A stretch of 36,184 bases of DNA from an uncultured Bacteroidales bacterium (GTDB lineage: Bacteria > Bacteroidota > Bacteroidia > Bacteroidales > Paludibacteraceae), in assembly GCA_902784585.1 (NCBI GenBank), contig CACZVM010000013.1, positions 1 through 36,184 of the forward strand. Direction: 5' to 3'. Below the pieces are notes generated by a model. It was not told the origin of the DNA. It saw only the letters and a program-made list of their open reading frames with translations, and ran no database searches. Shown here one piece after another: positions 2,686 through 25,314 of the stretch (positions within the stretch are counted from its first letter, which is position 1; the number at the start of each line of letters is the position of its first letter). The translations under genes were made by a program, and so were the position numbers.

Positions 2686-3249
2686 ATGGATTATCCGAAA
2701 TTGAAGAACCGCCCTTGGAAGGTGGTGAAGAGCGAGAACATCCTGCACCTGGGACCGTGGTTGTCGGTGAGGCAGGAGTGCGTGGAGTTGCCCAACGGCC
2801 GGCAGATACCGACCTGGTATGTGATGGAGTTTCCCGACTGGATCAATGTGATCGCTATCACGAAGGACGGACAGATGGTGATGGAAGACCAGTACCGGCA
2901 CGCGTTAGGCGAGACCCACTACGAACTGGTGGCGGGCGTGATAGATCCCGGCGAGACACCGCTGGAGGCTGCGCAGCGCGAGTTGAGCGAAGAGACAGGA
3001 TACGAAGGAGGCGAGTGGACCCTCTTCATGACGCTGTCGCCCAATCCGACGAACCATAACAACCTCTCGTATACGTTTCTGGCAACAGGTGTGGAGAAGC
3101 GGCGCGAACAGCACCAGGAACCGACCGAGGACATCCACGTGGATGTGATGGCCCCGGAGCAGGTGAGGCAGATGCTGGAGGATGGCGAGATAGTGCAGGC
3201 GCTACATGCGGCTCCGCTGTGGAAGTACTTTTTGAAGTTTTACGATTAG
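2686..3249 (+). CDS. NUDIX hydrolase, ADP-ribose pyrophosphatase-like
   Basis: A soluble 187-residue protein with a complete NUDIX box: G-VIDPG-E, seven residues, then REL-SEETG-Y, fitting GX5EX7REUXEEXGU. The two glutamates of REUXEE bind the divalent metals. Upstream, WYVMEFPDWINVIAITKDGQ and the YRHALGETHYELVAG lead-in resemble ADP-ribose and nucleoside-diphosphate-sugar pyrophosphatases of the NudF type. These hydrolyse ADP-ribose to AMP and ribose 5-phosphate. The substrate is an inference. The ATG at 2686 was chosen because a longer frame from 2653 would overlap the -7 box. Its stop codon overlaps that of the convergent tatD by four bases (3246-3249), so no terminator separates the two genes. 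Confidence 0.85.
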   Translation: MDYPKLKNRPWKVVKSENILHLGPWLSVRQECVELPNGRQIPTWYVMEFPDWINVIAITKDGQMVMEDQYRHALGETHYELVAGVIDPGETPLEAAQRELSEETGYEGGEWTLFMTLSPNPTNHNNLSYTFLATGVEKRREQHQEPTEDIHVDVMAPEQVRQMLEDGEIVQALHAAPLWKYFLKFYD

Positions 3250-4082
3250 AGGCGGAAGAGAGTGCGGGCGTTGGCGGTGGTCCGAGCCATCACCTCGTCG
3301 GGAGTGACTAGCAAGGTCTCCGCTATGCAGTTGGCGACGTGCTGGATATAGCGACTCTCGTTGCGCTCGCCGCGGTGAGGCACAGGAGCCATGTAGGGAG
3401 CATCCGTCTCCAAGAGGAGACGATCTAAGATTTCAAATTTAGGATTCAGGATTTTAGATTTCTGATTCAGTTCGGCGATGGTGTCGGGCAGACGGCTGTT
3501 CTTGAACGTGAAGACACCACCGATGCCGAGATAGAAACCCAGATCGAGAATGATCTGCGCTGTCTCGCGGCTGCCGCTGAAGCAATGGAAGACACCACGA
3601 AGCGGAGCTTCGTATTTGTGATTTGTGATTGGTGATTTGTGATTGGTGATTTCTTTGACGATGGTCAAGATATCTTCGGTGGCTTCGCGATTGTGGAGTA
3701 TGACAGGCAGATCGAGTTCGCGAGCCAGGAGAAGCTGATGGCGCAGCACTTGTTGCTGCGCTTCTTTGTAGGTGCGATCCCAGTAATAATCGAGTCCGAT
3801 CTCACCGATAGCAACGAGTTGGTGGCGATGGTTGCGGATGGCGTGTTCGATGGTGGCGAGTTGCGTTTGCCAATCATCCTTGACATCTTCGGGATGCAGG
3901 CCCAGCGCAGGGAAGCAGAAGCCCGGATGGGCATGGCACACATCGAGCACCGTGCGGATGGAAGCCGCATTGATGCCGGGTACGATCATGGCGCGTACGC
4001 CTGCTTCGCGCTGGCGCAAGATGACCTCCTCGCGATCGGCGTCAAAAGCTTCTTCGTCAATATGGCAGTGAGTGTCGATCAA
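3246..4082 (-). CDS. tatD: TatD-family metal-dependent hydrolase/DNase with two 14-residue repeat insertions
   Basis: TatD-type TIM-barrel hydrolase. Visible metal ligands are the N-terminal IDTHCHID (HxH), EIGLDYYW with its glutamate, FHCFSGS (histidine) and LLLETDAPYMAP (aspartate). The family acts as 3'-5' exonuclease or DNase in DNA repair and turnover. The chain is 278 residues, against roughly 250-265 usual. The excess is explained by two in-frame insertions of heptanucleotide repeat DNA, at about residues 144-157 (ITNHK repeated) and 205-218 (KSKILNPKFEIL). Both fall between conserved blocks. The start appears to be TTG at 4082: no ATG lies in frame upstream before a stop, and the HxH motif begins at residue 5. 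It is the last gene of the kinase-rlmL-queA-tatD operon, and 9 bases separate it from queA. Confidence 0.92.
   Translation of the reverse strand: MIDTHCHIDEEAFDADREEVILRQREAGVRAMIVPGINAASIRTVLDVCHAHPGFCFPALGLHPEDVKDDWQTQLATIEHAIRNHRHQLVAIGEIGLDYYWDRTYKEAQQQVLRHQLLLARELDLPVILHNREATEDILTIVKEITNHKSPITNHKYEAPLRGVFHCFSGSRETAQIILDLGFYLGIGGVFTFKNSRLPDTIAELNQKSKILNPKFEILDRLLLETDAPYMAPVPHRGERNESRYIQHVANCIAETLLVTPDEVMARTTANARTLFRL
3429..3470. repeat. Heptanucleotide repeat array inside tatD (copy 1)
   Basis: Six abutting 7-base units on the plus strand: gattTCA, aatttag, gattcag, gatttta, gatttct, gattcag. They total 42 bp and so add 14 codons without shifting the frame. They sit just before the conserved LDRLLLETDAP block of TatD. 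Confidence 0.85.
3612..3653. repeat. Heptanucleotide repeat array inside tatD (copy 2)
   Basis: Six 7-base units on the plus strand, alternating tgatttg and tgattgg (first unit gtatttg, last tgatttc). They total 42 bp or 14 codons. The translated repeat is 7 residues long (ITNHKSP, then ITNHK). Confidence 0.87.
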
Positions 4083-4086
4083 ATTT

Positions 4087-4107
4087 GGGATTTATGATTT
4101 AAGATTT
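4087..4107. repeat. Heptanucleotide repeat array at the queA-tatD junction
   Basis: Three units (gggattt, atgattt, aagattt on the plus strand) fill the gap between queA and tatD. On the coding strand they supply the last residues of QueA (NLKS) and its TAA stop. Confidence 0.8.
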
Positions 4108-5276
4108 AGTATGCTGCTGTCGCCGTAGGAGAGGAAGCGGAAGTCGTGGGAGAGGGCGTAGTCGTATATCTTGCGCCAGTCGCCACCGACGAAGGCGCTG
4201 ACGAGCAGCAGCAGGGTGGATTGGGGTTGATGGAAATTGGTGATGAGCTGATCGACGATATGGAAACGATAGCCTGGGCGGATCATGATCTGCGTCTCGG
4301 CGTGCAAGGTCTCTTGCCCCGTTTGGTCCATCCAGTCGAGCAATGACCGCAATGCATCCTTCGCGCTCATTGGGTAGTCCTGCTCATAGGGCTCGAACTG
4401 ACCGACATGCGGCGAACGGCTGCAGCCCATGAAATAGAGCGACTCGAGTGTACGCATAGAGGTGGTGCCGACAGCGACGATATGACCGAGCCGACGCAGG
4501 ATATGTGCGATCGTCTCGCGTGGTACGGCGATGATCTCCGTATGCATGGTGTGCTGGTTGGCATCGGCTGTCTTGACCGGCAGGAACGTGCCTGCACCGA
4601 CATGGAGCGTCAGTTCGTCCGTCTCTATGCCGCGTGTGCGCAGATCGTTGAGCACCGCCTCCGTAAAATGGAGTCCGGCCGTAGGTGCGGCTACCGACCC
4701 TTTGATACGCGAATAGACCGTCTGGTAGGTACGTTTGTCCGACTCTTCGGTAGGGCGGTTGAGATATGGAGGGATAGGCAGTTCGCCCATGGCGTCGAGT
4801 AGCTCGGCGAAAGAGACCTGCGGGTTGTCCCAATCGAACCGGACGGCATACGCGTTGCCAATGGCTTCGCCCTTGTGCGCGCAGAATGTCAACTCTGAAC
4901 TCTCCACTCTCAACTCTAAACACTCATCGTGCCATTTCTTGGCATTGCCGACGAGACATTTCCAGGTGCAGCCGGCAGTGGAAGAGAGCGAGAGCTGATA
5001 GTCGTGCGGATCGAGCGGTTCCAGACAGAACACCTCGATACGTGCACCGGTGGGTTTACGGAACTCGAGACGCGCCTGGATGACGCGTGTGTTGTTGTAG
5101 ACGAGGAGTGAACCGGGAGTGATATAGTTGCCGACACGGAAGAAAAGATCTTCCGACACCTCACCGTCGCGATAGACGAGCAGTTTGCTATGGTCGCGTT
5201 CTGGCAGCGGGTACTTGGCGATACGTTCGTCGGGCAGGGGATAGTTGTAATCGGCTATGTAGATGGGCTGAGACAT
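4092..5276 (-). CDS. queA: S-adenosylmethionine:tRNA ribosyltransferase-isomerase
   Basis: QueA transfers and isomerises the ribosyl group of S-adenosylmethionine onto preQ1-modified tRNA, giving epoxyqueuosine, the penultimate step of queuosine synthesis. Family blocks are clear: the N-terminal YPLPERDHSKLLV, the LLVYNNTRVIQARL strand, GSVAAPTAGLHFT, HVGAGTFLPVK and ITNFHQPQSTLLLLVSAF. The protein is 394 residues, longer than the 356 of E. coli. Part of this is a 14-residue in-frame insertion at about residues 118-131 (LELRVESSELTF) encoded by 7-base repeats at 4884-4925. The C-terminal NLKS and stop come from another repeat array. It lies 34 bases downstream of the methyltransferase gene, in a gap filled by repeats. 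Confidence 0.96.
   Translation of the reverse strand: MSQPIYIADYNYPLPDERIAKYPLPERDHSKLLVYRDGEVSEDLFFRVGNYITPGSLLVYNNTRVIQARLEFRKPTGARIEVFCLEPLDPHDYQLSLSSTAGCTWKCLVGNAKKWHDECLELRVESSELTFCAHKGEAIGNAYAVRFDWDNPQVSFAELLDAMGELPIPPYLNRPTEESDKRTYQTVYSRIKGSVAAPTAGLHFTEAVLNDLRTRGIETDELTLHVGAGTFLPVKTADANQHTMHTEIIAVPRETIAHILRRLGHIVAVGTTSMRTLESLYFMGCSRSPHVGQFEPYEQDYPMSAKDALRSLLDWMDQTGQETLHAETQIMIRPGYRFHIVDQLITNFHQPQSTLLLLVSAFVGGDWRKIYDYALSHDFRFLSYGDSSILNLKS
4884..4925. repeat. Heptanucleotide repeat array inside queA
   Basis: Six 7-base units on the plus strand: gaatgtc, aactctg, aactctc, cactctc, aactcta, aacactc. They total 42 bp or 14 codons. On the coding strand the unit reads roughly GAGTTNA, which gives the 7-residue pattern RVESSEL. 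Confidence 0.85.
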
Positions 5277-5322
5277 TAAGAATTAAGAATTCAAAATTAA
5301 GAATTAAGAATTAAGAATTAAG
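5275..5322. repeat. Heptanucleotide repeat array between the RlmL-like gene and queA
   Basis: Six 7-base units, five of them exactly aattaag and one aattcaa (5281-5322), with a partial unit at the queA start. The array makes up the whole 34-base gap. On the coding strand it also encodes the final NLNS of the upstream methyltransferase and its TAA stop. Confidence 0.9.
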
Positions 5323-6489
5323 ATTTTCTTTTCTCTTTCCCTGAAAGAGGTCGTAGCGATTGAACTGGCAGTCGAGTTCACCGTTGAGCAGGCGTAGCTT
5401 CTTAGACGGTTTGAGACCGATACATTTCATGGCCACCTCGTTGGAGGAGATGATCCACGCGGTGGAACCGGCAAACTGGTGCTTGAGGGCCGTACCGATA
5501 CGGCTGTAGAGATCTTCCATATCCTTGTTGCTCGCCAGTCGTTCTCCATACGGAGGATTGATCATCACCAAGGCGGATGTATTGGCGGTTTGTGATTCCG
5601 AATTTGTGATCTTCAACTCCTCGAGGCGGATCTGCCTTAACTCGATATCCTTCTGCAGGCTTGCCGCGCGGACGTTCTTAGTGGCTTGCTGGATGGCGAA
5701 GAAAGAGGCGTCGGAGCCATAGATATGATGGGTGAACGGTCGTTCAGCGGAGTCGTCGTTGTAGATCTCGCTCCATAGCTCGGCATCAAAATCGCGCCAG
5801 TGCTCGAAGGCGAACGATTGGCGGAAGATACCCGGTGCGATGTTGCGTGCGATGAGTGCCGCCTCGATGGGTAGCGTGCCGGAACCGCACATGGGGTCGT
5901 AGAAATCGCATTGCCCGTGCCAACCGGCCAGCAGCAACATACCTGCCGCGAGTGCCTCGTTGATAGGCGCTTCGGTGTTAGCGACGCGATAGCCGCGTTT
6001 GTGCAGACTCTCTCCGCTACTGTCGAGCGAGAGGGTGACACGATCTTGCGCAATATGGATATTGAGCAGCAGGTCGGGATCGGTGACACGCACAGAGGGC
6101 CGTTTGCCTCCGTGGCCGGTCCACCAGTCGGCGATGGCATCTTTGACGCGATAGGTGACATAGCGGCTGTTGCGGAAATGTTCGCTATAGACCGTAGCAT
6201 CGATGGCGAAGGTGGTGTCGGCCGACATATAACGGTCCCAGCTGAGTTGCATCAGTTGGGCGTACACCTCATCGGCATCTTTCGCGCGGAAAGAGGCGAT
6301 AGGAAGGAGTACGCGACTGGCGGTACGCAGACATAGATTGGCGCGATAGAGCAGCGCTTTGTCGCCCGCAAAACGTACGGCGCGTCGCTCGATCTGCACC
6401 TGGTCGGCACCCAGTTCGATGAGTTCTTTTGCCAAAACGGGTTCCAGACCCTTGAAGGTCTTGGCAATCATTTCCAATGGTTGGTTCAT
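5311..6489 (-). CDS. THUMP-domain class I SAM-dependent RNA methyltransferase, RlmL-like
   Basis: A cytoplasmic 392-residue protein with an N-terminal ferredoxin-like/THUMP region (KTFKGLEPVLAKELIELGA, then SLDSSGESLHKRGYR near residue 160) and a Rossmann methyltransferase domain. The SAM-binding motif is DPMCGSGTLPIEAALIARNIAPG, followed by an acidic IYGSDAS strand and the catalytic NPPYGERL motif typical of N2-guanine or N6-adenine methylation. The nearest well-studied relative is the N-terminal half of E. coli RlmL (23S rRNA m2G2445); the fused RlmK half is absent. Whether the target is 23S rRNA is an inference. Residues about 293-302 (ITNSESQTAN) come from a heptanucleotide repeat array, as do the C-terminal NLNS and stop. 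It starts 7 bases after the kinase gene. Confidence 0.9.
   Translation of the reverse strand: MNQPLEMIAKTFKGLEPVLAKELIELGADQVQIERRAVRFAGDKALLYRANLCLRTASRVLLPIASFRAKDADEVYAQLMQLSWDRYMSADTTFAIDATVYSEHFRNSRYVTYRVKDAIADWWTGHGGKRPSVRVTDPDLLLNIHIAQDRVTLSLDSSGESLHKRGYRVANTEAPINEALAAGMLLLAGWHGQCDFYDPMCGSGTLPIEAALIARNIAPGIFRQSFAFEHWRDFDAELWSEIYNDDSAERPFTHHIYGSDASFFAIQQATKNVRAASLQKDIELRQIRLEELKITNSESQTANTSALVMINPPYGERLASNKDMEDLYSRIGTALKHQFAGSTAWIISSNEVAMKCIGLKPSKKLRLLNGELDCQFNRYDLFQGKRKENLNS
5587..5614. repeat. Heptanucleotide repeat array inside the RlmL-like gene
   Basis: Four degenerate 7-base units (ggtttgt, gattccg, aatttgt, gatcttc) lie between the SAM domain strands and the NPPY motif. The ends are uncertain, since flanking sequence may contain further decayed units. 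Confidence 0.6.
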
Positions 6490-6496
6490 AGCGAGT

Positions 6497-7357
6497 CTAT
6501 TCGGTAGTGGGTCGTGCGTCTGCGCGGTGATAGTCGATGAGTCCGGGGATAGGATCGAGCAGGACAGTGCCTACCGTGAGTCCTTCTGCCGCGAGTGCTT
6601 CCTCGAGGATGGGACGGTAGTAATAGGCGATGGAGCCGACGAAAGAGGCCGACGACACCCCATATTGCAGCAGATTGCGGCGGATGAAGCTAAGGAAATG
6701 GTCGTAAACCAGGTGGTGGATACGCTCATCGTCCAGATGGGTGGCACAGAAACGTGACAGCGAGGCCAGATAGCGGTTGGGCAGGGGCTGGCGATAGACG
6801 CGGTCGATGATCTCGGCCATGGACGTCTGTTGTTCACTTAGAAAGGCTTCTTTCAGATCCTCCCCCAGCTGATTCTTGAGTATATCACCCACCAGTCGTT
6901 TGCCCAGCACGGCACCTGATCCTTCGTCACCGAGGATGAAGCCCAGCGAGGGAACGCACCACTCAATCTGCTGTCCGTCGTAGGCACAACTGCCGCTACC
7001 CGTACCGAGGATACAAGCTACGCCGGGTTGATGCCCCAGCAGTCCGCGGGCTGCACCCAACATGTCGGATTGCACCTCGGCTGCGGCCTTGGGAAACACA
7101 TCGTTGAGCGCTTCGCTGACGAGCACTTTCTTCTCCGGCGTACATCCGGCACCGTAGAAGAAGATATGGGTGATAGTTCCCGCCCAGAGCAGGCGTGCCA
7201 TCTGCGGAAGCAGCTGATTGTTAAGACACCGGCGGATATCGTCGGCAGACTGGAAGACGGGGTTGATGCCATCGGTGCGGAATTCGGACACTTGTCCGCT
7301 GGCTGTGAGCAGACACCAGTGGGTCTTGGTGCTGCCGCTATCGGCGAGGAGAATCAT
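6497..7357 (-). CDS. BadF/BadG/BcrA-type ATPase, probable N-acetylglucosamine-type kinase
   Basis: A 286-residue member of the ASKHA (actin-like) kinase fold. The phosphate-1 motif is ILLADSGSTKTHWCL at the N-terminus. The phosphate-2 region is ACILGTGSGSCAYDG near residue 120, followed by PSLGFILGDEGSGAVLGKRL, a hallmark of bacterial GlcNAc kinase-like BadF proteins. It probably phosphorylates an amino sugar, perhaps from recycled cell-wall material; the substrate is an inference. The ATG at 7357 was chosen over a longer frame from 7417 because the motif begins right there and a promoter lies at 7387-7418. It heads the kinase-methyltransferase-queA-tatD operon. A 7-base repeat array occupies its short untranslated leader. 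Confidence 0.85.
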   Translation of the reverse strand: MILLADSGSTKTHWCLLTASGQVSEFRTDGINPVFQSADDIRRCLNNQLLPQMARLLWAGTITHIFFYGAGCTPEKKVLVSEALNDVFPKAAAEVQSDMLGAARGLLGHQPGVACILGTGSGSCAYDGQQIEWCVPSLGFILGDEGSGAVLGKRLVGDILKNQLGEDLKEAFLSEQQTSMAEIIDRVYRQPLPNRYLASLSRFCATHLDDERIHHLVYDHFLSFIRRNLLQYGVSSASFVGSIAYYYRPILEEALAAEGLTVGTVLLDPIPGLIDYHRADARPTTE

Positions 7358-7359
7358 TT

Positions 7360-7380
7360 CAGATTTATGATTTATGATTT
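7360..7380. repeat. Heptanucleotide repeat array in the kinase leader
   Basis: Three units (cagattt, atgattt, atgattt on the plus strand) lie between the predicted transcription start near 7382 and the ATG at 7357, so the leader RNA is almost entirely repeat. Confidence 0.8.
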
Positions 7381-7386
7381 TGGGTG

Positions 7387-7418
7387 CAAAATTACAAAAA
7401 AACTTGCATATACGCAAG
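7387..7418 (-). promoter_or_regulatory. Promoter of the kinase-rlmL-queA-tatD operon
   Basis: TAATTTTG (7394-7387 on the minus strand) is the -7 box, with CTTG 20 bases upstream. The -33 region is part of a dyad, ACTTGC-GTATAT-GCAAGT (7402-7419). Its centre is 16.5 bases upstream of the -7 box, the same geometry as in the dicarboxylate transporter promoter. Confidence 0.7.
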
Positions 7419-7437
7419 TCTCAACATAAATTTGGGT

Positions 7438-7471
7438 AAAAAAAGAAGGTTGTCACGAAAAGTGAAGCCTT
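7438..7471 (-). terminator. Second of two tandem terminators after the small RNA
   Basis: On the minus strand, AAGG pairs with CCTT and TCAC with GTGA around a TTTTC loop (7446-7471), with a small internal loop. A run of T interrupted by one C follows. It shares the 14-base direct repeat aaaagaaggttgtc with the first terminator. Confidence 0.5.
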
Positions 7472-7483
7472 TTTGTATAAAAC

Positions 7484-7509
7484 AAAAGAAGGTTGTCATC
7501 CCGACAACC
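7484..7509 (-). terminator. Rho-independent terminator of the small RNA
   Basis: A perfect 7-bp stem GGTTGTC / GACAACC (7509-7503 with 7497-7491 on the minus strand) and a 5-base GGGAT loop, followed by TTCTTTTG. Confidence 0.75.
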
Positions 7510-7552
7510 AATCTTTTTCATTTAACCTTAAAATCTAATACCATGAAAAACA
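7484..7552 (-). ncRNA. Candidate small non-coding RNA of about 68 bases
   Basis: A full promoter (7558-7589) is followed after about 60 bases by a strong terminator hairpin, with no open frame of any use between. Predicted RNA runs from near 7552 to 7484. Its 5' part (GUUUUUCAUGGUAUUAGAUU, then AAGGUUAAAUG) resembles a leader-plus-terminator element I recall in many Bacteroidales intergenic regions; that recollection is not verified here. Function is unknown. The alternative is an attenuator in front of the kinase operon, but that operon has its own promoter at 7387-7418, downstream of both terminators. Neighbours: the UspA-like gene terminator upstream and the kinase promoter downstream. Confidence 0.6.
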
Positions 7553-7557
7553 CGGTG

Positions 7558-7589
7558 CAAAAGTACTGCTTTTTGAGCATATGACCAAA
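7558..7589 (-). promoter_or_regulatory. Promoter of the small RNA, a copy of the tRNA-Val promoter
   Basis: On the minus strand TTTG (7589-7586), 20 bases, TACTTTTG (7565-7558). The stretch from 7556 shares ggtgcaaaagtactgctttt with the promoter of the tRNA-Val gene at 26581, and both also carry atatgaccaaat at the -33 box. Confidence 0.78.
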
Positions 7590-7609
7590 TATTTTGATTA
7601 GAAAGTGTC

Positions 7610-7645
7610 AAAAATTCACATTTTGCAATTTTTAGTTTGCAAAAT
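7610..7645 (-). terminator. Terminator of the engB-to-uspA gene run
   Basis: On the minus strand a 9-bp stem ATTTTGCAA / TTGCAAAAT with an 8-base loop (7645-7620) is followed by GTGAATTTTTG. It begins 19 bases after the stop of the UspA-like gene. Confidence 0.65.
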
Positions 7646-7663
7646 GGCAGTATTCGGGTGTGA

Positions 7664-8236
7664 TTAGTCGCAAAGTGAGAAAAGATCTTCGCGAGGGTTG
7701 ACCAGTAGAACAGGTACGAGTGCGCGTTGGATGGCATGTTGTTCGGGTGGTCCGAAGAGGATGTCGTCGAGTCCGTAGTCGCGGCTGGCCGTGAGGACAA
7801 GCAGGTCGTGGCGGAAATCTCTCTGTCGTTCGCTGGCCTCCTTGACGAGCGAGAAACTGTCTTTGCGAGCTTGTGCTATCTCGTAAGAGACAGGCTGCCG
7901 GCCATCGGCTATCAGCTGCTGGCTGATTCTCTCGATATGGGTGACGATGCGGTTGACGTTCTGCCGTGCGCGGGAGCCGTAGTCGTTGGCCTGGAGCAGG
8001 ATGATATGTGCGCCGGTATGCCGAGCGATATAGGTACATATCTCCGCCTTGTAGGTTTCTTCTTCGAGCATGGAAACGGGTACGAGCAAGCGGTGCAGCG
8101 GTTTGATCGTCATCGTGGGGGTGATGAAGACGTAGGGACGTCGTTCGTCGCGACACTCCTGCAGATGCTGTCGGATGGTGCGTGACCGGTTGGCGCACTC
8201 GATGAGTCGGATATCGTCGTTATTGTCCCAGATCAT
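7664..8236 (-). CDS. Universal stress protein (UspA)-like domain protein
   Basis: A soluble 190-residue protein. The central and C-terminal parts look like a UspA alpha/beta fold: a first strand HRLLVPVSMLEEE, a second HIILLQAND, a helix with SFSLVKEASE, then HDLLVLTASRDYG and the closing strand VPVLLVNPRED, which is typical of the family. The usual GxxGx9G(S/T) ATP-binding loop before the last strand is not obvious (GLDDILFGPPEQHAIQ instead), so nucleotide binding may be lost. Its ATG overlaps the mltG stop by 4 bases (ATGA), implying translational coupling. The role is unknown. The fold call is fairly sure; a Bacteroidales-specific variant is likely. Confidence 0.65.
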   Translation of the reverse strand: MIWDNNDDIRLIECANRSRTIRQHLQECRDERRPYVFITPTMTIKPLHRLLVPVSMLEEETYKAEICTYIARHTGAHIILLQANDYGSRARQNVNRIVTHIERISQQLIADGRQPVSYEIAQARKDSFSLVKEASERQRDFRHDLLVLTASRDYGLDDILFGPPEQHAIQRALVPVLLVNPREDLFSLCD

Positions 8237-9345
8237 AGTGTCTGCTGCTCTTGTTGTTTGGCGGCTTCGCGTTGCTGGCGTCGCATCTCATCGAAGCGTT
8301 CCCAATTGATGGTATCCATGGTGTGGCGGTACTGACGTGCTGCTGCGGCATGGTTGCCGTAGGAGGACGAGAAGATATGGGTGTTGTTGAGTTGCGGGTT
8401 GGCGCACATGAACAGATAGTCGGTCTTAGGCGCATGGAGCACCATATCCATGGTCTCGGGATTAGGACAGCGGATGGGGCCGGGAGGTAGTCCGGGGTAG
8501 AGATAGGTGTTGTAGGGATTGTCGACAGCCAGATGTCGGTTGAGTACGCGTCGCAGTTTGAAATCGCCCACGGCATACTTGACGGTAGGACAGGCCTGTA
8601 GGTGCATCCCGCGGTGTACGCGGTTGATATAGAGGCTGGCGATGATAGGCATCTCCTGTTTGTTATGGCTCTCGCCCTCGACGATAGAGGCAATGATGGC
8701 CACCTCGACAGGAGTGAGGCCAAGCGAGTCGGCCAGTTGGCGTCGCTCTGTATTCCAGAAGGTGTTGTACTCCTGCTGCATACGCTGGAAGAGTTTGTCG
8801 GGCGTGATAGTCCACAGCACCTCGTAGGTATTGGGGATGAAGAGGCATCGGCTGGTCTCGCGGTTGAGGCCGTATTGTGCCATATACGCATCGCTGTCGA
8901 GCAGGCAGAGCAAGGTGAGGCTATCCATCATAAGATGGCGTGTGACACGTCCCGCCAGTTCTTCACGCGTGCGGACATAGTTGTTCCACGTGATCATGAC
9001 GGGGGTCTGTCGTCCGTATTTGAGCCTGTTGATCAGTTCGCTATCGCCCATCTGCGGCGGGAAGGTATAGTGGCCGGGTTCGGGCGAGAGGAAGAGCTTG
9101 AAGCGCTTATGGAGATAGAAATCGTGCCGGCTGCCGATGAAATAGTCGCTATCAAGCAATGCCAGCACGGAGTCGACGGTGGCTCCGGGGTAGATATGAT
9201 AGCTATGCGACTGGCCGTCGCGAGCGCGGAAGTTGCTCACTTGCAGACGATAGTACTGCTCGACGGCGAATGAGCCGACGAGGAAAAGCAGTATGCTCAG
9301 CGTAATAAGCACCGTGCGGACGATATAGCGTTTCTTAATGTCCAT
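8233..9345 (-). CDS. mltG: Endolytic murein transglycosylase MltG (YceG-like)
   Basis: MltG cuts nascent glycan strands in the periplasm and so sets peptidoglycan strand length. The 370-residue chain starts with KKRYIVRTVLITLSILLFLV, a single membrane anchor. A LysM-like region follows, then the YceG catalytic domain: AIIASIVEGE with the presumed catalytic glutamate at residue 223, YINRVHRGMHLQACPTVKYA, NPYNTYLYPGLPPGPI and the final NNTHIFSSSYGNH block. The EKE seen in E. coli is EGE here, which keeps the first glutamate. It lies 30 bases after mutS, in a gap containing a heptanucleotide repeat array, and is coupled to the UspA-like gene downstream. Confidence 0.95.
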   Translation of the reverse strand: MDIKKRYIVRTVLITLSILLFLVGSFAVEQYYRLQVSNFRARDGQSHSYHIYPGATVDSVLALLDSDYFIGSRHDFYLHKRFKLFLSPEPGHYTFPPQMGDSELINRLKYGRQTPVMITWNNYVRTREELAGRVTRHLMMDSLTLLCLLDSDAYMAQYGLNRETSRCLFIPNTYEVLWTITPDKLFQRMQQEYNTFWNTERRQLADSLGLTPVEVAIIASIVEGESHNKQEMPIIASLYINRVHRGMHLQACPTVKYAVGDFKLRRVLNRHLAVDNPYNTYLYPGLPPGPIRCPNPETMDMVLHAPKTDYLFMCANPQLNNTHIFSSSYGNHAAAARQYRHTMDTINWERFDEMRRQQREAAKQQEQQTL

Positions 9346-9363
9346 CGTAGCAATGATTGAATT

Positions 9364-9384
9364 AGGGTTTATGATTTAGGATTT
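9364..9384. repeat. Heptanucleotide repeat array at the mutS-mltG junction
   Basis: Three units (agggttt, atgattt, aggattt on the plus strand). On the coding strand they give the last residues of MutS (KS) and its TAA stop. Confidence 0.75.
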
Positions 9385-12018
9385 GCCACCGACGAGGCGT
9401 TGGATCTCCGACAGTTTGTTGAGTGCCTCGAGGGGCGTGAGACGGTTGATATCGAGCGATTTGACTTCGTCGCGGACCTGCTCGAGAACGGGGTCGTCGA
9501 GTTGGAAGAAACTGAGTTGCATCCCTTCGCGATTCTCGCCCAGGTGGGCCTTGGTATTGATATTAGTATTGGCTGATCCTTCCAGTTCGGACAGGATCTG
9601 GTTGGCCCGTTCGATGATAGAGGCAGGCATGCCAGCCAGTTTGGCCACATGGATACCAAAGCTGTGTTCGGAGCCGCCGCGCACGAGTTTGCGCAGGAAG
9701 ATCACCTTGCCGTTGATCTCCTTGACAGAGACGTTGTAGTTGCGGATACGATCGAAAGTCTGCTCCATCTCATTGAGTTCGTGATAGTGGGTGGCGAAGA
9801 GGGTCTTGGCGTGTCCTTTGTTCTCGTGGATATACTCGACGATGGCCCAGGCGATGGAAATGCCGTCGTACGTGCTGGTACCGCGTCCGAGTTCGTCGAA
9901 GAGGACGAGGCTGCGTTCGCTCAGGTTGTTCAGGATAGAGGCGGCTTCGTTCATCTCAACCATAAAGGTGGACTCTCCTAATGATATATTATCGCTCGCG
10001 CCCACACGCGTGAAGATCTTGTCGACCACTCCGATAGAGGCGCTCTCGGCAGGCACGAACGAACCCATCTGTGCGAGCAGCACGATGAGTGCTGTCTGGC
10101 GGAGTAGGGCCGATTTACCGGCCATGTTAGGACCTGTGATGATGATGATCTGCTGGCTGTTGTTGTCGAGCAGCACGTCGTTGGCGATATACTGTTCGCC
10201 GGGTGGCAGTTGTTGTTCGATGACGGGATGGCGTCCTTGTCGGATATCGATCAGGAGGCTGTCGTTGACATCGGGGCACACATAGCGGTAGTCGGCAGCT
10301 ACGGTCGCGAAAGAGAGCAGGCAGTCGAGTTGTGCGAGAACGCTTGCGTTGAGTTGCATCTGCGGCACCCATTCGGTGAGGGCGAGCATCAGTTCCTGAT
10401 AGAGTCGGTTCTCGATGACGAGGATGCGGTCTTCCGCCGACGTGATCTTCTCTTCGTACGCCTTCAGTTCGTCGGTGATATAGCGTTCCGCTCCGACGAG
10501 TGTCTGCTTGCGTATCCACTCGGCAGGTACTTGATCTTTGTAGGTGTTGCGTACCTCGAGGTAGTAGCCGAAGACATTGTTGAATCCGATCTTGAGGCTC
10601 TGTATGCCGGTGCGTTCTGCTTCGCGCTGCTGGACCTGGATCAGGTAGTTCTTGCCGTCCGACTGGATAGCGCGCAGTTCGTCCAGTTCGCTATCCACGC
10701 CGTGTGCGATGGTGCCTGGGCGCCCTTGAGCGAGTGGCGGATCGGGTACTATCTCGCGTTCGATACGGCTGCGCATCTCGGAGCAGGGATCGAGTTGTTC
10801 GCCCAACAGCGTCAGATAGGTGTTGTCGTGAGCGGCCTGACAGATGTCTTTGACGGGTCGGACAGCACGCAGGGCGCGTCCGAGTTGAACCATCTCACGT
10901 GGTCCGATACGGCCGGTGGATATCTTGCTGACGATGCGCTCGAGGTCGCCCACCTGGGAGAGTGCTTCGCGGAGTGTCTCGCGTGCCTCCGGGTGGCGGA
11001 AGAGGTGCTCCACTACCGTCTGACGATTGCGGATAGGCCGCACGTCCTTGAGCGGGAAAGCCATCCATCGATGGAGCAGGCGTCCGCCCATAGGGGTGAT
11101 GGTGCGATCGATGATGTCGTAGAGGGTACGACTCTCTTCTGTCTGTCCACCGAGCAGTTCAAGATTGCGGATGGTGAAGCGATCGAGCCACACATATTTC
11201 TCTTCTTCGATACGGCTGAGGTGCTGTATATGGCCTGTCTGCAGGTGCTGCGTCATATCCAGATACATCAGTATGCCTCCTGCTGCGGTGATGCCTGCAG
11301 GCATGTTGTCGAGTCCGAAGCCCTTGAGCGAGGAGACGCCCCAGAGCTTCTGTAGGCGTTCGTGTGCAGTGGACTCGACGAGCATCCAGTCCTCGAGTTC
11401 GAAAGTGAAATACTTATTGCCAAAGAGGTTCTCTATGTCGGCTTTGCGTCCGCGCAGATAAAGAATCTCTTTGGGCGCAAAGTTGGTGAGCAGTTTGTCG
11501 ATATAGTCGCTATCCCCTTGTCCGGCCATAAACTCACCGGTGGAGATGTCGAGGAAGGCTACGCCTATCTGGCCTCTGAATGCTGAATGCTGGCGGCTGT
11601 CCACAAAATGGATACAAGCCACCCAGTTGTTCTCCTTCTGGGTAAGGGTGGTGTCGGAATAGCTGACCCCGGGGGTGACGAGCTCGGTGACACCGCGTTT
11701 GACCAGTTTCTTGGTCAATTTGGGATCTTCGAGTTGGTCGCAGATAGCGACGCGTAGGCCGGCACGCACGAGTTTGGGCAGATAGGTGTCGAGTGCATGG
11801 AAGGGGAAGCCTGCCATTTCGAGTGCCTGTGCGGCGCCGGAAGAGCCGTTGGAGCGGTGGGTAAGGGTGATATTGAGTATCTTGCTGGCCCGGACTGCGT
11901 CCTCGGCGTAGGTCTCGTAGAAATCGCCGCAACGGAAGAGCAGCATCGCATCGGGATACTGCGTCTTAATGTCGCGGAATTGGCGCATCATCGGGGTTAG
12001 TTCTTCGTTATTTGCCAT
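9376..12018 (-). CDS. mutS: DNA mismatch repair protein MutS
   Basis: Full-length 880-residue MutS, which recognises mismatches as a dimer and starts repair with MutL. The mismatch-reading motif is present (RCGDFYETY, Phe33 and Glu35). The ATPase domain has Walker A GPNMAGKS at about 629-636, [13 protein letters not shown], Walker [17 protein letters not shown], and the [12 protein letters not shown] histidine switch, followed by the dimerisation helix-turn-helix. The C-terminal tail after residue 810 carries a short linker and a small helical region that could serve tetramer formation. The start at 12018 lies 3 bases after the TonB receptor stop, so the gene is co-transcribed with an outer-membrane receptor gene. 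The last two residues and the stop lie in repeat DNA. Confidence 0.98.
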
Positions 12019-12021
12019 GAT

Positions 12022-14493
12022 TTAGCGTAGATCAAAAGTTATCTTCAGATTATATCGTCTTCCGGTGAGGTAGTTGGGGCTGCGCCAGGAGTGACCGTCG
12101 GCATCGTCGAGGTAGAAATAGGAATTGACGTTGCGCCATCCGACGAGGTTGAACACCTCGAACTGGATAGCCCACTGCTTGATATGTCTGGCTCCGGGGC
12201 GGCGCATGAACTTCGCTGTCTTCTCGTTGAAGACATAGGTGGCACCGAGGTCGATACGTTTGTACATAGGCATTCTTCCCCACTGCTGGCTGTTATGCGG
12301 CAGGTAGAATGGTTGGCCGTCGGAGAACTGCATCTTGAGATGGAACTTCAGTTGTGGCAGTTGGGGCAGATAGTCCTGGAAGAGCATGGTGAAATTGAAC
12401 CGTTGCTCTGTGGGGGAGGGGATCCATGGCCCGCTTCCGGTTCCCTCCTGACTGGCGATTTGCCGTTGCCGGGCTGTCATGGTGGAGAAGGATATCCAAG
12501 AGTCGGCACCGGGTACGAGTTCGCCATAGAGCTTGAGATCAAGTCCTGCGGCATAGCCTACGGCATCGTTGCGTCCGCTGTAGCGTACGCGCACATTGTC
12601 AACGGTATAGGTCTCCATCCTGTCGATATACTTGTAGTATGCTTCGGCGGTGAACTTAAACGGTCGGCCCCATGCTCGGAAATAATAGTCGGTGCCAAGT
12701 ACAACATGTACAGAACGCTGGGCGCGCAGATTGCGATTGAGTGCGATGCGGGTGATGCCGTTATGGTCGGTGACGGTGTCGCGCAGTTCCTTGTAGAACG
12801 GCGCTTGATAGTAGAGGCCCGTAGCCAGTCGGAGGCTCAGGTCGCGTTTCCATCCGGGTATCCACTCGACACTGGCGCGTGGGGAGGGGAGTACTTCGTT
12901 GTTCCAGCTCCACCATTGGAGACGTCCGCCGACGGTGAGGATCCACTGTCCGGAAGAGGTGTGCCAGCGGTGTTGATTCTGGACGTATGCTTGAAGCCGT
13001 GCGGACTGCATCGAGCTGTCGCCACGCATGGAATAGTAGAGGGCCATATCGTGCCCGTTGTTGGGCATGGAGTAGCCGGCAGAGTCGCGCCATTCCCATT
13101 CGCTGATATGATCGCGGATGAGTTCGCCCTGTCCGCTTATTCCCCAGGAGAGCGTGTTAGACTCGCGTGTCCAACTGCCGTGGTGGGCGAGGGTGAAGAC
13201 ACCGGCGCGGAGGAAGTTGCGCGCGTGCTGATGGAAGATACCCGTGGCGAGTACGTTGCTCTGGTCGGACGGGTTGACTTGCTCGCTGAGCATGTTGCCG
13301 GTGGCGGAACCGTCGGCCGAACCCTTGGAGAGTACATACTGACCGGTGATGTCGAAGGTCTCGCGCTCGTTGGTATAGAAACCGGACAGGTCGAAGCCGA
13401 TCTCCACCTCATCGCTCACGTGACCTTGTGCACTGATAGCCGCAAAGGCAGTGAGGAATCGGTCTTTCTCCTGACCGTCGTAGTAGATATTGAGTTGGCG
13501 TGTGGCTACCAGTCCACCCCAACTCTCGCTAAGTGAATCAGGTGTGAAACGGTAGTCGTTGAGGCTGACATTACCCAGAAATGACATGTGCCAACGCGGT
13601 GCTACACGCCACGTGATATAGGTCTGATAATCAAGGTATGTGGGTTGATAATTGCCGGAAGTGGAGAGACCTCCGAGCATATACTTGCTGGTCTTATAGC
13701 GCAAGCCGTGCATCATCGAATAGGTGCTGTCACCGTGTCCTATGTAGAGTTGTGCTCCAAGCAGGCTGGCGCTAAGGCTGGCCTCGAAAGCGGTAGGCCG
13801 CTTATAGCTGATATCGAGTACGGAGGACATCTTATCGCCGTAACGTGCGCTATAGCCACCGGCTGAGAAAGAGAGGTTGTCCACCATCTCTGGATTAACG
13901 AACGAGAGTCCTTCCTGTTGGCCCGATCGGATCAGCAAGGGGCGGTGTACCTCGATGCCGTTGACATAGACGGAGTTCTCGTCGAACGAACCGCCGCGAA
14001 CGTTGTATTGCGAACTGAGTTCGTTGGTCTGACTCACACCGGCGAAGGTGATGAGCAGACTCTCGATAGATCCACCGGTAGCATCGGGCATGACGCGGGT
14101 GGTGGAGGCATCTATCTGGTCCATCGTTCCCTGGGTGCGTTTGAGACCGCGTACCTCTATCTCGGTGAGCAGTTGTTCGTCGGTAAGCAGTTGAACGTTG
14201 ATATTGAGCACGTCATGCAGATCGATGATACGTTGTTGGACGGTGGTATAGCCGATCATGGAGTAGGAGAGGACTACCGTGTCCGCTTCGTCCATGACGA
14301 GTTCGTAAAAGCCGTTCTTGTTCGTCGATGTACCGAGCGGTCGGTCGGCATTGAGAACCACCACATTCGCCAACTCAATACCTATGTTGTCTTGATCGAC
14401 CACGTAACCGTAGATACGGGCGTTGCGAGCAAAGACCGTCAGACTGCACGAACACAGGAGCAAAAAGTTTACTATTTTTAAGATTCTATGCAT
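12022..14493 (-). CDS. TonB-dependent outer-membrane receptor with carboxypeptidase-like regulatory domain
   Basis: An 823-residue outer-membrane protein. Residues 1-22 (ILKIVNFLLLCSCSLTVFA) are a signal peptide. A CarboxypepD_reg-like domain follows (ARIYGYVVDQDNIGIELANV to VQLL, about residues 25-105), then a plug domain (GGSIESLLITFAGVSQTNEL, YNVRGGSFDENSVYVNGIEV) and a beta-barrel ending in LKITFDLR, whose final arginine follows a hydrophobic strand as in other barrels. It should import a large or scarce substrate using TonB energy. No SusD-like partner lies beside it and it is shorter than most SusC proteins, so the ligand is unknown. It follows engB after about 90 bases that hold an 11-bp tandem repeat. 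Confidence 0.92.
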   Translation of the reverse strand: MHRILKIVNFLLLCSCSLTVFARNARIYGYVVDQDNIGIELANVVVLNADRPLGTSTNKNGFYELVMDEADTVVLSYSMIGYTTVQQRIIDLHDVLNINVQLLTDEQLLTEIEVRGLKRTQGTMDQIDASTTRVMPDATGGSIESLLITFAGVSQTNELSSQYNVRGGSFDENSVYVNGIEVHRPLLIRSGQQEGLSFVNPEMVDNLSFSAGGYSARYGDKMSSVLDISYKRPTAFEASLSASLLGAQLYIGHGDSTYSMMHGLRYKTSKYMLGGLSTSGNYQPTYLDYQTYITWRVAPRWHMSFLGNVSLNDYRFTPDSLSESWGGLVATRQLNIYYDGQEKDRFLTAFAAISAQGHVSDEVEIGFDLSGFYTNERETFDITGQYVLSKGSADGSATGNMLSEQVNPSDQSNVLATGIFHQHARNFLRAGVFTLAHHGSWTRESNTLSWGISGQGELIRDHISEWEWRDSAGYSMPNNGHDMALYYSMRGDSSMQSARLQAYVQNQHRWHTSSGQWILTVGGRLQWWSWNNEVLPSPRASVEWIPGWKRDLSLRLATGLYYQAPFYKELRDTVTDHNGITRIALNRNLRAQRSVHVVLGTDYYFRAWGRPFKFTAEAYYKYIDRMETYTVDNVRVRYSGRNDAVGYAAGLDLKLYGELVPGADSWISFSTMTARQRQIASQEGTGSGPWIPSPTEQRFNFTMLFQDYLPQLPQLKFHLKMQFSDGQPFYLPHNSQQWGRMPMYKRIDLGATYVFNEKTAKFMRRPGARHIKQWAIQFEVFNLVGWRNVNSYFYLDDADGHSWRSPNYLTGRRYNLKITFDLR

Positions 14494-14504
14494 GTTAAGT
14501 GTGA

Positions 14505-14566
14505 ACGAGACTTTAACGAGGAACTAACGAGACGTTAACGAGACATTTACGAGACATTTACGAGGG
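14505..14566. repeat. 11-bp tandem repeat upstream of the TonB receptor gene
   Basis: Five complete 11-base units and a partial sixth on the plus strand: acgagacttta, acgaggaacta, acgagacgtta, acgagacattt twice, then acgaggg. The array fills most of the engB-receptor gap. A related array lies at 35884-35927. Confidence 0.85.
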
Positions 14567-14583
14567 CAAAAAGTATACGATTT

Positions 14584-15216
14584 TTAAGATTTTACTTCTG
14601 CGTTCAACTGTTCAATATAGTTCGTTAATTCTTCTCCGCCAAGACCGGTTTCCGAACTGGTTACAAACACAGGCGGCAGTTCTTCCCATTCTTCGAGCAG
14701 GCGTGTCTTGTAGGCCTCAACGTTCTCTTTCAGCCGTACTTTGCCGAGTTTGTCTCCTTTGGTAAACACGATGGCAAACGGAACACCGTTCTCGCCGAGC
14801 CAGTTAATGAACTCGAGGTCGATCTTTTGCGGCTCGTGGCGACAGTCGATGAGCACGAACAGGCATACCAGCTGTTCACGGAGCAGGCAGTACCGTTCAA
14901 TCATCTTTTTCAGCGCCTCACGTTGTTTCTGGCCCGCTTGTGCATAGCCGTAGCCGGGAAGGTCGACGAGGTGCCATTTTTGATTGCTGATTGCTGATTG
15001 CTGATTGCTGACGCTCTCAACCAAAAAATGGTTGATGAGCAGCGTCTTACCCGGTTTCTGGCTCGTCTTGGCGAGCTTGGAATTATGGCACAGCATATTG
15101 ATCAGCGACGACTTGCCCACATTACTGCGGCCGATGAAGGCGTACTCCGGAAGTGTGCTCTGCGGACACGACGCTACATCCGGATTGGATATGATATATT
15201 GAGCGGATTTGATCAT
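14584..15216 (-). CDS. engB: Ribosome biogenesis GTPase EngB (YsxC/YihA)
   Basis: EngB is a small essential GTPase needed for assembly of the large ribosomal subunit. The 210-residue chain has the P-loop GRSNVGKS (29-36), DLPGYGYA as the G3 motif, TKGDK as G4 and a C-terminal [10 protein letters not shown] as G5. Between the strands before G3, where relatives have a short turn, this protein carries about 14 extra residues ([15 protein letters not shown], near 66-81) encoded by 7-base repeats. It starts 21 bases after the cstA-type gene, in a gap that is itself a repeat array. The ATG at 15216 is the only sensible start. Confidence 0.95.
14974..15015. repeat. Heptanucleotide repeat array inside engB
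   Basis: Four perfect consecutive copies of tgattgc (14981-15008) with a decayed unit on each side (ccatttt, tgacgct), 42 bp if the flanks are included. The translation repeats every 7 residues ([10 protein letters not shown]). The flanking boundaries are uncertain; the perfect core is not. Confidence 0.88.
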
Positions 15217-16766: not shown

Positions 16767-19700
16767 TTAATACATGATTATCTTGTGTGTCTCGTGCTGT
16801 CCGTCGCTGGTAATGGTGTGGATGAACCACAAGCCGTTCTGAGCCGGCAGTTTTATCTGACAAGTGCCTGCCTCAAAGGTACGTGTCTCCACGAGCATGC
16901 CTGCCGTCGAATAGACGGAATAGGAACCGCTCTCGGTGGCCTCGAGTGTCACAACAGGCGAACGACGCGATACCTGGGTAGGATATACCAGGACAGGATA
17001 GGTGTAGACAGGTGCTGCGGCGCGTTGGATGATGAGCGGACAGGTCGGGATAGGATAACTCTCGCCTTGACGTGTAGCGTAGAGCACCACTTCGTCTCCT
17101 TCGCGCAAGGACTGGCTGTAGAGATAGCCCTTGCCGTCGGTAGCCTGGCGTGTGCCGTTGACGTACCAATCGTAGAGCGAGAAGGTGTAGCCGCCATTGA
17201 GTTCGGGCTTGAGCGATGCCACTACGTCGGACCAGTTCTGCTCTATGATCCAAGACGGATAGCGAACGAGGAAGCCCACAGAATCTACTGTGCTGGACGG
17301 GCAGACGGTGTTGTCGAACACCAGACTCAGCGTGTAGTAGTCAGGACGCACGTAGTTGGTGTGATCCAAATAGATGACATCCGAACTCTGCGGCATCGGT
17401 GCACGTGCCACCATATCGCTGGTGAACGGCTGGCCGATGACATCCCGGAAGCCCTGACGCTTGGCTAGTTGGTCAAAGAGGATGCTGTAGCGAGTGGGTT
17501 CGGCACCTGTGTATTCAAACTTCACTTCCAGCGTCTGTGCATCGGCACATACCTCGTTGATAGTGGCTCTCCGGAGTCGGGTAGGCGGCACAACGATCAG
17601 ACGCAGCGAATAGATGACAGAGGTGTGGGTGCCCAATACGCAAACGGTGTCGGAATAGAGTCCCGTGTCGTAGAGCGTGTCGCCACGCCAGATATATTTC
17701 TCTCCCAGACAGATCGAGTCCTCCATATGGATACGCTGGGTGGGGATAACTGTGAGTCGCAGTGTATAGGTGCTGTCACAATCGTTGATCGTAGGATAGG
17801 TCTGATGGAACTCACCCTGCTGATCGTACTCGCGTCCGCGCCATAGATAAGACTGATAGTCGGTGATGGTGGCATCGGTGAAGAACTCATAGGTGGGATA
17901 AACCGTCAAGTCGAGGTGGAGTAGTGAGTCGCACCCTTCTTGGGTCTTGAGCGTGAAGTCATAGTGGCCTCCGCGTGTCAGTTCACGTCCGCCGTAGCGC
18001 AGAGTGTCGCCCTGACATATACGGCGTGTTTCGGTAGGCATGTCGTAAGCAGGGGCGTCATATACCTGCACGCGATACAGACTGTCCATCAGTCCGCTGA
18101 CCTGAGAGCGGCGCAGGAAGGTATATTCGCCTGCTTGCGTGATCACATCACCGCCGATCTTGATCTCCGTTCTCGGACAGAGAGGCATCTGATACCATGG
18201 CGAGACGTGTTGCGAGATGGTTAGATTGAGTTTGAAGATCGAGTCGCATCCATGCATGTTGGTGAAGGTATCCACGTAGACATCCGTATTCCAGTACTCA
18301 TGTCCCTTGTATCGATACGGCAGATCTTCGTCAGCCACCACCACTTTCTTCTCCACAATGTCCTTAGGCCGAACGACGAGATGGAGGATGATGACAGAGT
18401 CGCATCCTATCTCATAGCGGACAGTACGTGTGGTGGTATAGTCCACTCCGTAGAAATTATAGGTTTCTCCCTGACAAATGGTGTCGGAATACTCTTGACG
18501 GAAGGTACGTGTCTCATTGACAGTGATCTGATAGATCGAGTCGCATCCATGGATGGTATAGAGCGTGTCGAGATAGATACCCGGACGGGATATCTCGATG
18601 CCGTGGATATAGGTGCTGCGTCCCGGGCAGATCAGATGCGACTCCTGCATAAAGTACGTAGGATGAACGATCAGATGAAGTTTGTATACTGAGTCGTAGC
18701 CCTGTGTCGTCAGCAGCGAATCGTAATAGATACCTTCGTTAACCAAGCGACGTCCGTTGCGCCAGATGAACGTATCTTTCTGGCATATTTCCTCTTCGGT
18801 CTCAATCAGATACGAGGGGTGAACCTGCAATTGGAGATGAATGATCGAGTCGCACCCCGAAGCCGTCTTCTTGTATGCTACGTACGGACCGGGTACCCAG
18901 AGTGTACGTCCGTCGAATTCATAGGTCTCCTTGTCGGAGATATGTACGGTGTCGTATTTCTCATAGGTGGGCAGTACACGTACGTTGATACGGAAGATCG
19001 AGTCGCAGCCGTCCACAGACGGGATGGTGTCGTAGAAGATACCGTTGGTGCTATAGGGCTTGCCCCGATAGTAGAAGGCGCTGGAGCCTTCGCACAACTC
19101 GATATGTTGCTCGGCATAATAGGACGGCATGATCTGCAGCACTTTGAGCATATAGACGGAGTCGTATCCCAGTGAGGTCTGCAGACTGTCGTAATAGATT
19201 CCCGTATCGTGGATCTGCTGTCCGCGCCAGAGGTAAGGCAATTCGGACTGGCAGAGTCTGATGGAGTCGGGGAACAGATAGGTCTGGCCTACCGTGAGAT
19301 GGAGTACGTAGCGGATAGAGTCGCACATACCATCTTTGGTGCGTACGATATGTTCGTGTTCGCCTGCAGCCAGGAAACTGTAAGTGGCATCTTCTATATG
19401 CCAGATATATGGTTGTTTGTTAGGTGTCTTGGCATAGAAATCGATCACCTGCAACGGACGGAAACGGAGGAAGAGCGTGTACTCTTTGCCGCAACCGAAA
19501 CCTGTTTGGATGGTATCGCGTAGCAGGGTGTCGCGTGTGTAGATATGGCCATGGAACGAATAGTTGTCGCCTGCGCAGAGGGTCTTCTCTATCGTCTCAT
19601 ATTCCATCTGTGTGATACGTACATCGACACGCCAGATAGTGTCCACTCCAAGCGTGGTGATGGTGTCATAGATGATGCCGCTTTGGCTGAGCCATTTGCC

Positions 19701-25307: not shown

Positions 25308-25314
25308 CTGTTTT

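Follow-up and report, generated by a model that had tools for sequence, protein, structure and literature searches.

Heptanucleotide arrays at recurrent protein loops in an uncultured Bacteroidales genus: probable microsatellites under continual turnover

Introduction

How does a tandem repeat with a unit length not divisible by three come to lie in frame inside housekeeping genes? The question is raised by 36,184 nucleotides of an uncultured Bacteroidales bacterium of the Paludibacteraceae (assembly GCA_902784585.1, contig CACZVM010000013.1, positions 1 to 36,184; hereafter, the window), in which arrays with a 7-base period lie within the genes tatD, queA and engB. We find that such arrays recur at the same few protein positions in related species and are filled there with unrelated units. 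They are probably heptameric microsatellites in continual birth, rewriting and loss, with selection for tolerant sites.

The source genome, here G000, is an incomplete assembly of 1,634,244 bases in 21 contigs (79.3% complete). Orthologs of TatD, QueA and EngB were sought in 41 genomes of the genus, and the best 30 loci of each, G000 included, were kept. DapB and TsaB were added because they bear arrays in G000, and are therefore biased towards at least one array each. The resulting set comprises five proteins with 30 sequences apiece (150 in all), from which arrays within 8 core residues of either end were dropped; the same five proteins provided a species tree of 33 genomes. Proteins were named with NCBIfam profiles and their curated cut-offs.

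Recurrence and turnover at shared sites

Sixty-nine internal arrays were found among the 150 orthologs (8 in TatD, 9 in QueA, 8 in EngB, 19 in DapB and 25 in TsaB). All eight EngB arrays lie at core residue 68. Those of TatD lie either at residue 150 (five of 30 orthologs), the slot of the window's first tatD array, or at 192-196 (three of 30), the slot of its second, while the slot of the window's queA array, 124-129, is occupied in four of 30 orthologs. TsaB carries 8 arrays at 107 and 13 at 187-190, and DapB 8 at 86-88, 6 at 151 and 4 at 36. Array pairs no more than 3 residues apart numbered 204, against 19.1 for random placement and a maximum of 37 in 5000 trials. A stricter test, in which arrays were grouped into clusters of 12 residues, reached significance in TatD, QueA and EngB and not in DapB (P 0.13) or TsaB (P 0.13), because many arrays in a short protein leave few clusters expected.

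Identical units occurred in 8 of 207 between-species pairs at the same slot versus 10 of 332 at different slots; same-slot units in different species are hardly more alike than units from different slots. Loops at the EngB array site of relatives take lengths of 7, 11, 12, 13, 14, 15, 17, 18, 19, 20 and 21. Because lengths at one site vary among relatives, array length is not set at 42 bp, as a sequence-only reading of the window had supposed. A length fixed by the reading frame at 21 or 42 bp is ruled out, the loop lengths not being quantised in sevens. Different species fill shared sites with unrelated units, and the arrays are not clean inherited insertions: the clean 42-bp insertion expected by the sequence-only reading is seen only at the first TatD array, and QueA gains almost nothing.

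The distribution of arrays over species agrees with this. On the 33-genome tree, the fewest changes required lay within the shuffled range at eight of nine slots (at its lower end for DapB 36). For five of the six window arrays, the corresponding region of the sister genome G042 is free of arrays, and the sixth falls in a gap of 752 versus 123 bases that is not comparable; relative to G053, four of six lack a counterpart array and two are not alignable. Shared positions, unrelated units and presence off the tree together imply that arrays are gained and lost faster than species split. Since units differ between species and presence departs from the tree, a clean ancient insertion kept by descent is ruled out at most slots, with the exception of TsaB 187-190.

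Arrays in the window

A lag-7 scan of the window yielded five stretches with at least 17 of 21 matches, and none at lags 2-6, 8 or 10. The features concerned are listed below, with gains in loop length relative to G042.

3246-4082, minus strand: tatD gene with two heptamer arrays inside (TIGR00010, 241.9 bits against a cut-off of 206)
3422-3467, minus strand: tatD array 2, imperfect, peptide NQKSKILNPKFEIL; loop 6 residues longer
3614-3651, minus strand: tatD array 1, unit ATTTGTG/ATTGGTG, peptide ITNHKSPITNHK; loop 14 residues longer
4089-4108, no strand: short noncoding array of GATTTAA between tatD and queA, passing the lower threshold only
4092-5276, minus strand: queA gene (PRK00147, 344.1 bits against a cut-off of 324)
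4891-4924, minus strand: queA array, unit GAGTTGA, peptide ECLELRVESSEL; 2 residues longer
5275-5338, minus strand: array between queA and rlmL, seven copies of ATTAAGA, running from the queA start codon to past the rlmL stop codon
5587-5614, minus strand: possible decayed array in the RlmL-like gene, below every threshold of the array scan
7356-7380, no strand: noncoding array at the 5' end of the next gene, unit GATTTAT
14504-14564, no strand: period-11 array AACGAGACATT in the engB intergenic region, where G042 has a heptamer array of GGACAAA
14584-15216, minus strand: engB (yihA/ysxC) gene (TIGR03598, 199.2 bits against a cut-off of 124.45)
14976-15011, minus strand: engB array, unit GATTGCT; 11 residues longer, also relative to the B. 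subtilis-type YsxC 1sul

The sequence-only reading had placed period-7 arrays in frame in four genes, between conserved blocks and each with a unit of its own. Siting and individual units were borne out, as was the in-frame placement in tatD (twice), queA and engB; the RlmL array fell below the thresholds. Six units, or 42 bp, fits the gain of 14 residues in the first tatD loop and not the smaller gains at the second tatD array, engB and queA. As proposed, TatD without both inserts returns to the family length, which is 253 positions in TIGR00010; the solved structure 2gzx aligns over 254 residues. Relative to 2gzx the protein is longer by 9+2 and by 11 residues, the latter being array 2, and the inserts fall in alignment gaps. 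In the alignment to 1sul, the engB insert of G000 likewise falls in a hairpin gap of YsxC, between two beta-strand-like stretches. Because QueA shows no length gain at its array when aligned to the solved structure 1vky, and differs from G042 there by just 2 residues, the queA array is hardly an insertion. The score of the RlmL-like protein against PRK11783 is below the cut-off. Among relatives the length of this loop varies, with repeat-like peptides in, for example, L087, L092 and L095, and positions 5587-5614 may at best represent a decayed array. No array was found in the G042 or G053 counterpart of 5275-5338.

In the TatD locus of another genome of the genus (G009, L080), a mixed 7/8-base array combines units of the AAATGGT and AAATGCCC types, which suggests that periods can mix inside one array. 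Elsewhere in the window, positions 16767-25352 hold one open reading frame of 2861 residues, built of many similar modules that bear a Cys-Asp-Ser motif; its product is probably a large protein that is secreted or lies at the surface.

Abundance and placement in the genus

For G000, 400 of 1634 kb were scanned with a loose lag-7 score, as 20 stretches each 20 kb long, using as controls one trinucleotide-Markov shuffle per stretch and the periods 5, 6, 8, 10 and 13. The scan returned 58 period-7 arrays, against 0 in the shuffle and a mean of 1.4 for the control periods. This is the genome-wide excess of 7-base periodicity anticipated from the window, and chance periodicity is excluded. Under a strict score the counts were 40 for period 7 and 10 for period 11, with at most 3 for each of periods 1-6, 8-10, 12 and 13. 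The pattern GATTNNN in four successive copies occurs 46 times in the G000 genome, and its backward version once.

Eighty further stretches from 15 other genomes brought the sample to 2.0 Mb from 16 genomes of the genus. It contains 192 period-7 arrays at densities of 0 to 19.2 per 100 kb, highest in G006; no period-7 array was found in the 100 kb scanned from each of G044 and G049. Array size has a median of 4.9 and a maximum of 14.7 units of 7 bp, over a range of 25-103 bp. Most arrays are imperfect and an exact period is rare, so the exactness first ascribed to them does not hold.

A second class has a period of 11 bases: 71 arrays, including that of the window, 65 of which lie between genes. 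In G011 it far exceeds period 7 (22 versus 3 under the strict score). A dispersed element of approximately 440 bp in G000, found in inverted orientation at L031:2747-3178 and L035:385-799 (80% identical), holds both an 11-mer and a 7-mer array, and shorter pieces of it match other stretches.

Genes were called with a simple codon-usage script, a non-standard tool. Of 64 arrays in G000 (the 58 above and 6 from the window), 22 are internal to a called gene, a further 22 span a gene edge and 20 fall between genes. When 16 array-bearing G000 gene calls were scanned with NCBIfam, seven scored above cut-off (pheT, cinA, ribBA, diaminopimelate dehydrogenase, a WecE-type transaminase, a YicC-type nuclease and tsaB), four were recognisable below it (dapB, trmN, rsbW and alpha-amylase) and five were unmatched. 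Across the genus sample, 55 of 192 arrays lie inside called genes, with some 81% of the DNA called coding (hand-weighted fractions); arrays are depleted in genes about tenfold. Units are free of stops on at least one strand in 49 of the 55 arrays inside genes versus 97 of the 137 outside (P = 0.008), and in 40 of the 55 the consensus unit is open on the called coding strand. Among the 137 arrays outside genes, 84 are nearest a stop codon; 49 include a stop codon and 15 a start codon.

Unit vocabulary and wider occurrence

In G000, 38 of the 58 arrays have a unit class in common with at least one other array, against 5.6 for heptamers matched in guanine-plus-cytosine (GC) content. Longer segments are not shared in this way: common multi-unit segments showed no excess in G000 (29 pairs versus 25.6 expected), and copying of whole arrays was rejected for want of any excess in G000, G003, G006 and G046, with a slight one in G007. 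A GATT or GAAT core is present in 78 of 192 arrays, against 17% expected at matched GC. Two other candidate rules fared poorly. A strand free of C is only a weak tendency (129 of 192 versus 55% expected at matched GC). A privileged status of GATTGGT is not supported in viral contigs, where it matched 8 times, the reversed order 14, GAATTAA 14 and a scramble once.

The arrays are not a Bacteroidales peculiarity. Within the genus, 20 of 25 genomes contain four copies of GATTNNN; for the order the figure is 3 of 16, and for the phylum 130 of 394. The backward control also occurs in many of those phylum genomes, and other heptamers must therefore abound too. Exact GATTGGT arrays of 27 bases were found in at least 112 stretches and, among the 80 listed, their titles name about eleven phylum-level groups. 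Many of these matches are metagenome bins, possibly contaminated, although isolate genomes are also represented, such as those of Sphaerospermopsis kisseleviana NIES-73, Lysobacter spongiae and Calothrix membranacea FACHB-236.

In 13 of the 80 stretches the array lies in a frame that stays open for 60 residues or more in either direction; of these frames, several are GC-rich and probably spurious. Five of seven GATTGGT-bearing proteins scanned belong to known families: MurF from a Paludibacteraceae bin, UvrA from a Saprospiraceae bin and a radical SAM protein from Anabaena lutea carry the array, and it is in frame in LepA of a Candidatus Berkelbacteria bin and in citramalate synthase of Calothrix membranacea. 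Proteins of the Paludibacteraceae bin (L146) are 69-84% identical to those of the genus, apart from one weak match of 35-40% on the strand opposite a better one, which would place the window probably close to that family.

Discussion

We propose that an array would be born as about five 7-bp units through local, slippage-like tandem expansion, strongly biased to a 7-nucleotide period (11 outside genes). Births would be spread over the chromosome, and selection would purge nearly all arrays that break genes, leaving those between genes, at gene ends (often including the stop codon) or in tolerant loops within genes. Survival within a gene would require a unit free of stops on the coding strand, a net change that keeps the frame and a protein loop that tolerates it. 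If every species tolerates insertions in the same few loops, repeated refilling with unrelated units would follow. We infer that slippage is the birth step, that the peptides are neutral and that events take this order.

Several results sit uneasily with this proposal. In 15 of the 55 arrays inside genes, reading the consensus unit on the called coding strand does not give an open frame; these are imperfect arrays or wrong gene calls. The TsaB slot 187-190 follows the tree (5 changes; shuffled minimum 6), and some arrays must therefore be inherited. The closest available pair of genomes, G014 and G041, is just 77% identical over 26.8 kb of DNA, too distant to show births; of its 16 arrays, ten with a 7-base and six with an 11-base period, none could be aligned in both flanks. 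Array pairs share a unit in 3.4% of cases within a genome, 0.9% between genomes and 0.2% for GC-matched random heptamers, and sharing in G000 is 27 times that predicted from noncoding heptamers (0.0345 versus 0.0013), a restricted vocabulary for which slippage alone does not account. At 16 bases, G007 has a slight excess of common segments (6, where shuffles reached 5 at most). Certain array flanks in G000 are also related to one another, with 22 matches, of which the 20 listed fall in 9 array pairs.

This vocabulary is the natural starting point for rival explanations. Dispersed selfish repeats, copied between loci by recombination or by a route like that of Rickettsia palindromic elements, would give each genome its own dialect, and units are indeed shared 3.6 times more often within than between genomes, with species-specific forms such as GATTCYT in G023, GATTYAA in G009 and GATTATG in G040; the element bearing both kinds of array, present twice in the G000 sample, points the same way. 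However, in G000, G003, G006 and G046 imperfect segments of 16, 20 and 24 bases recur between arrays no more often than when unit order is shuffled, and same-slot units are unrelated between species. We consider this explanation unlikely, while taking it seriously. A bolder generalisation, in which 7-nucleotide writing is encoded by the genome, biased by species and limited in vocabulary, and serves bacteria at large as an engine of loop evolution, with the same loops of essential proteins repeatedly rewritten as unrelated peptides (templated, in its boldest form, as opposed to plain slippage), strikes us as quite unlikely. A dedicated telomerase-like enzyme copying heptamers from a template would suit a shared, species-biased vocabulary so far above background, and yet only 10 of 41 genomes have a match to reverse transcriptase (PF00078), the array-rich G000, G003 and G006 (75-84% complete) not being among them. 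Array-rich G046 has two PF00078 matches, leaving no consistent link; reverse transcriptase as the writer is rejected as far as this one enzyme family goes, and we give the templating enzyme very little weight.

Other explanations turn on what the arrays might do. Since 7 cannot be divided by 3, adding or deleting a single unit would shift the frame and switch a gene off, and heptanucleotide tracts near the Haemophilus hmw genes are phase variable. Contingency loci of this sort are nonetheless very unlikely here: the hosts are housekeeping genes (engB, pheT, tsaB, ribBA), the arrays are mostly imperfect with a median below five copies, and genes are avoided. The arrays might instead be functional DNA sites, with motifs spaced at 7 bp that bind protein or mark transcript ends and coding copies as by-products. 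The preference of noncoding arrays for stop codons and the common GATT/GAAT core accord with such a role, which we regard as very unlikely given that units differ too much between and within genomes, that G044 and G049 yielded no array and that positions are not conserved between sisters. An artefact of assembly or binning, or chance periodicity, could be suspected from the incompleteness of G000; the lag scans, the similar arrays in isolate genomes and the agreement on sites among orthologs from dozens of separate assemblies leave it almost no credence. Lost mismatch repair was also considered as a cause and rejected on the basis of MutS, the sole repair gene examined, which is full length in the window (9376-12018; TIGR01070 over residues 7-873 of 880).

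The arrays are an unusual natural source of variation in protein length in this uncultured Bacteroidales group. If heptameric microsatellites do turn over as proposed, a repeat that is not a multiple of three would be a main visible source of in-frame length change in the essential proteins of the genus, and the arrays would themselves mark insertion-tolerant loops. Peptides such as NHQSPIT and NQQSAIS in database proteins would be repeat DNA read in frame, as opposed to domains. Since array-rich and array-free species coexist in one genus (0 to 19 per 100 kb), the question of why the period is seven is a testable one.

Relation to known repeat systems

Heterocystous cyanobacteria carry short tandemly repeated repetitive (STRR) sequences, short tandem heptamers at many places in the genome, to which the sequence-only reading had likened the arrays. 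The likeness extends to the form of the DNA and no further: the units are different, and coding sites are not described in the excerpts available for that system.

Seven nucleotides is the commonest class of bacterial repeats with units of 5-11 nucleotides, according to Mrazek et al. 2007 as relayed in parts of PMC4679880 and PMC4692102, where polymerase slippage is proposed and the bias ascribed to polymerase contact length. The same excerpts describe GGGAATC in Xanthomonas and GGGGA(C/T)T in Nostoc as varying in length and sequence among close relatives. Our arrays resemble these heptanucleotide long simple sequence repeats in consisting of tandem 7-nucleotide units, in exceeding expectation (58 versus 0) and in varying in length and sequence among relatives, here at the level of species. 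The known repeats are, in the portions available, mainly intergenic with one dominant unit, whereas here there are many units, a third of arrays in genes and recurring loops.

The TAACTGA direct repeats, reported in the available part of PMC4679880 from Beggiatoaceae, Cyanobacteria and five Bacteroidetes including Paludibacter, with one set inside purC, are likewise heptamer tandems that reach the Bacteroidetes. As described there, they have one fixed unit, mostly just upstream of starts, and related heptamers are rarely repeated; our units are diverse, gene ends prevail over sites upstream of starts, and TAACTGA is absent from the 33 unit classes found.

The nearest precedent at the protein level is provided by the Rickettsia palindromic elements, repetitive DNA fused in frame into unrelated metabolic genes at unstructured protein segments (Ogata et al. 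2000, via parts of PMC10969869 and PMC2996958). In-frame siting in tolerant segments of unrelated protein genes is also found here, though hardly in queA. Those elements are, in the same excerpts, about 150 bp long and form defined families with a conserved peptide; ours are direct 7-bp repeats of 25-103 bp with no conserved sequence, same-slot units being unrelated.

Heptameric repeats and in-frame selfish DNA are each already known, and no report of heptamer repeats combined with in-frame siting was found in the open-access literature searched. What is added here is that arrays made of unrelated units recur at shared positions in proteins, and that they are widespread in essential genes.

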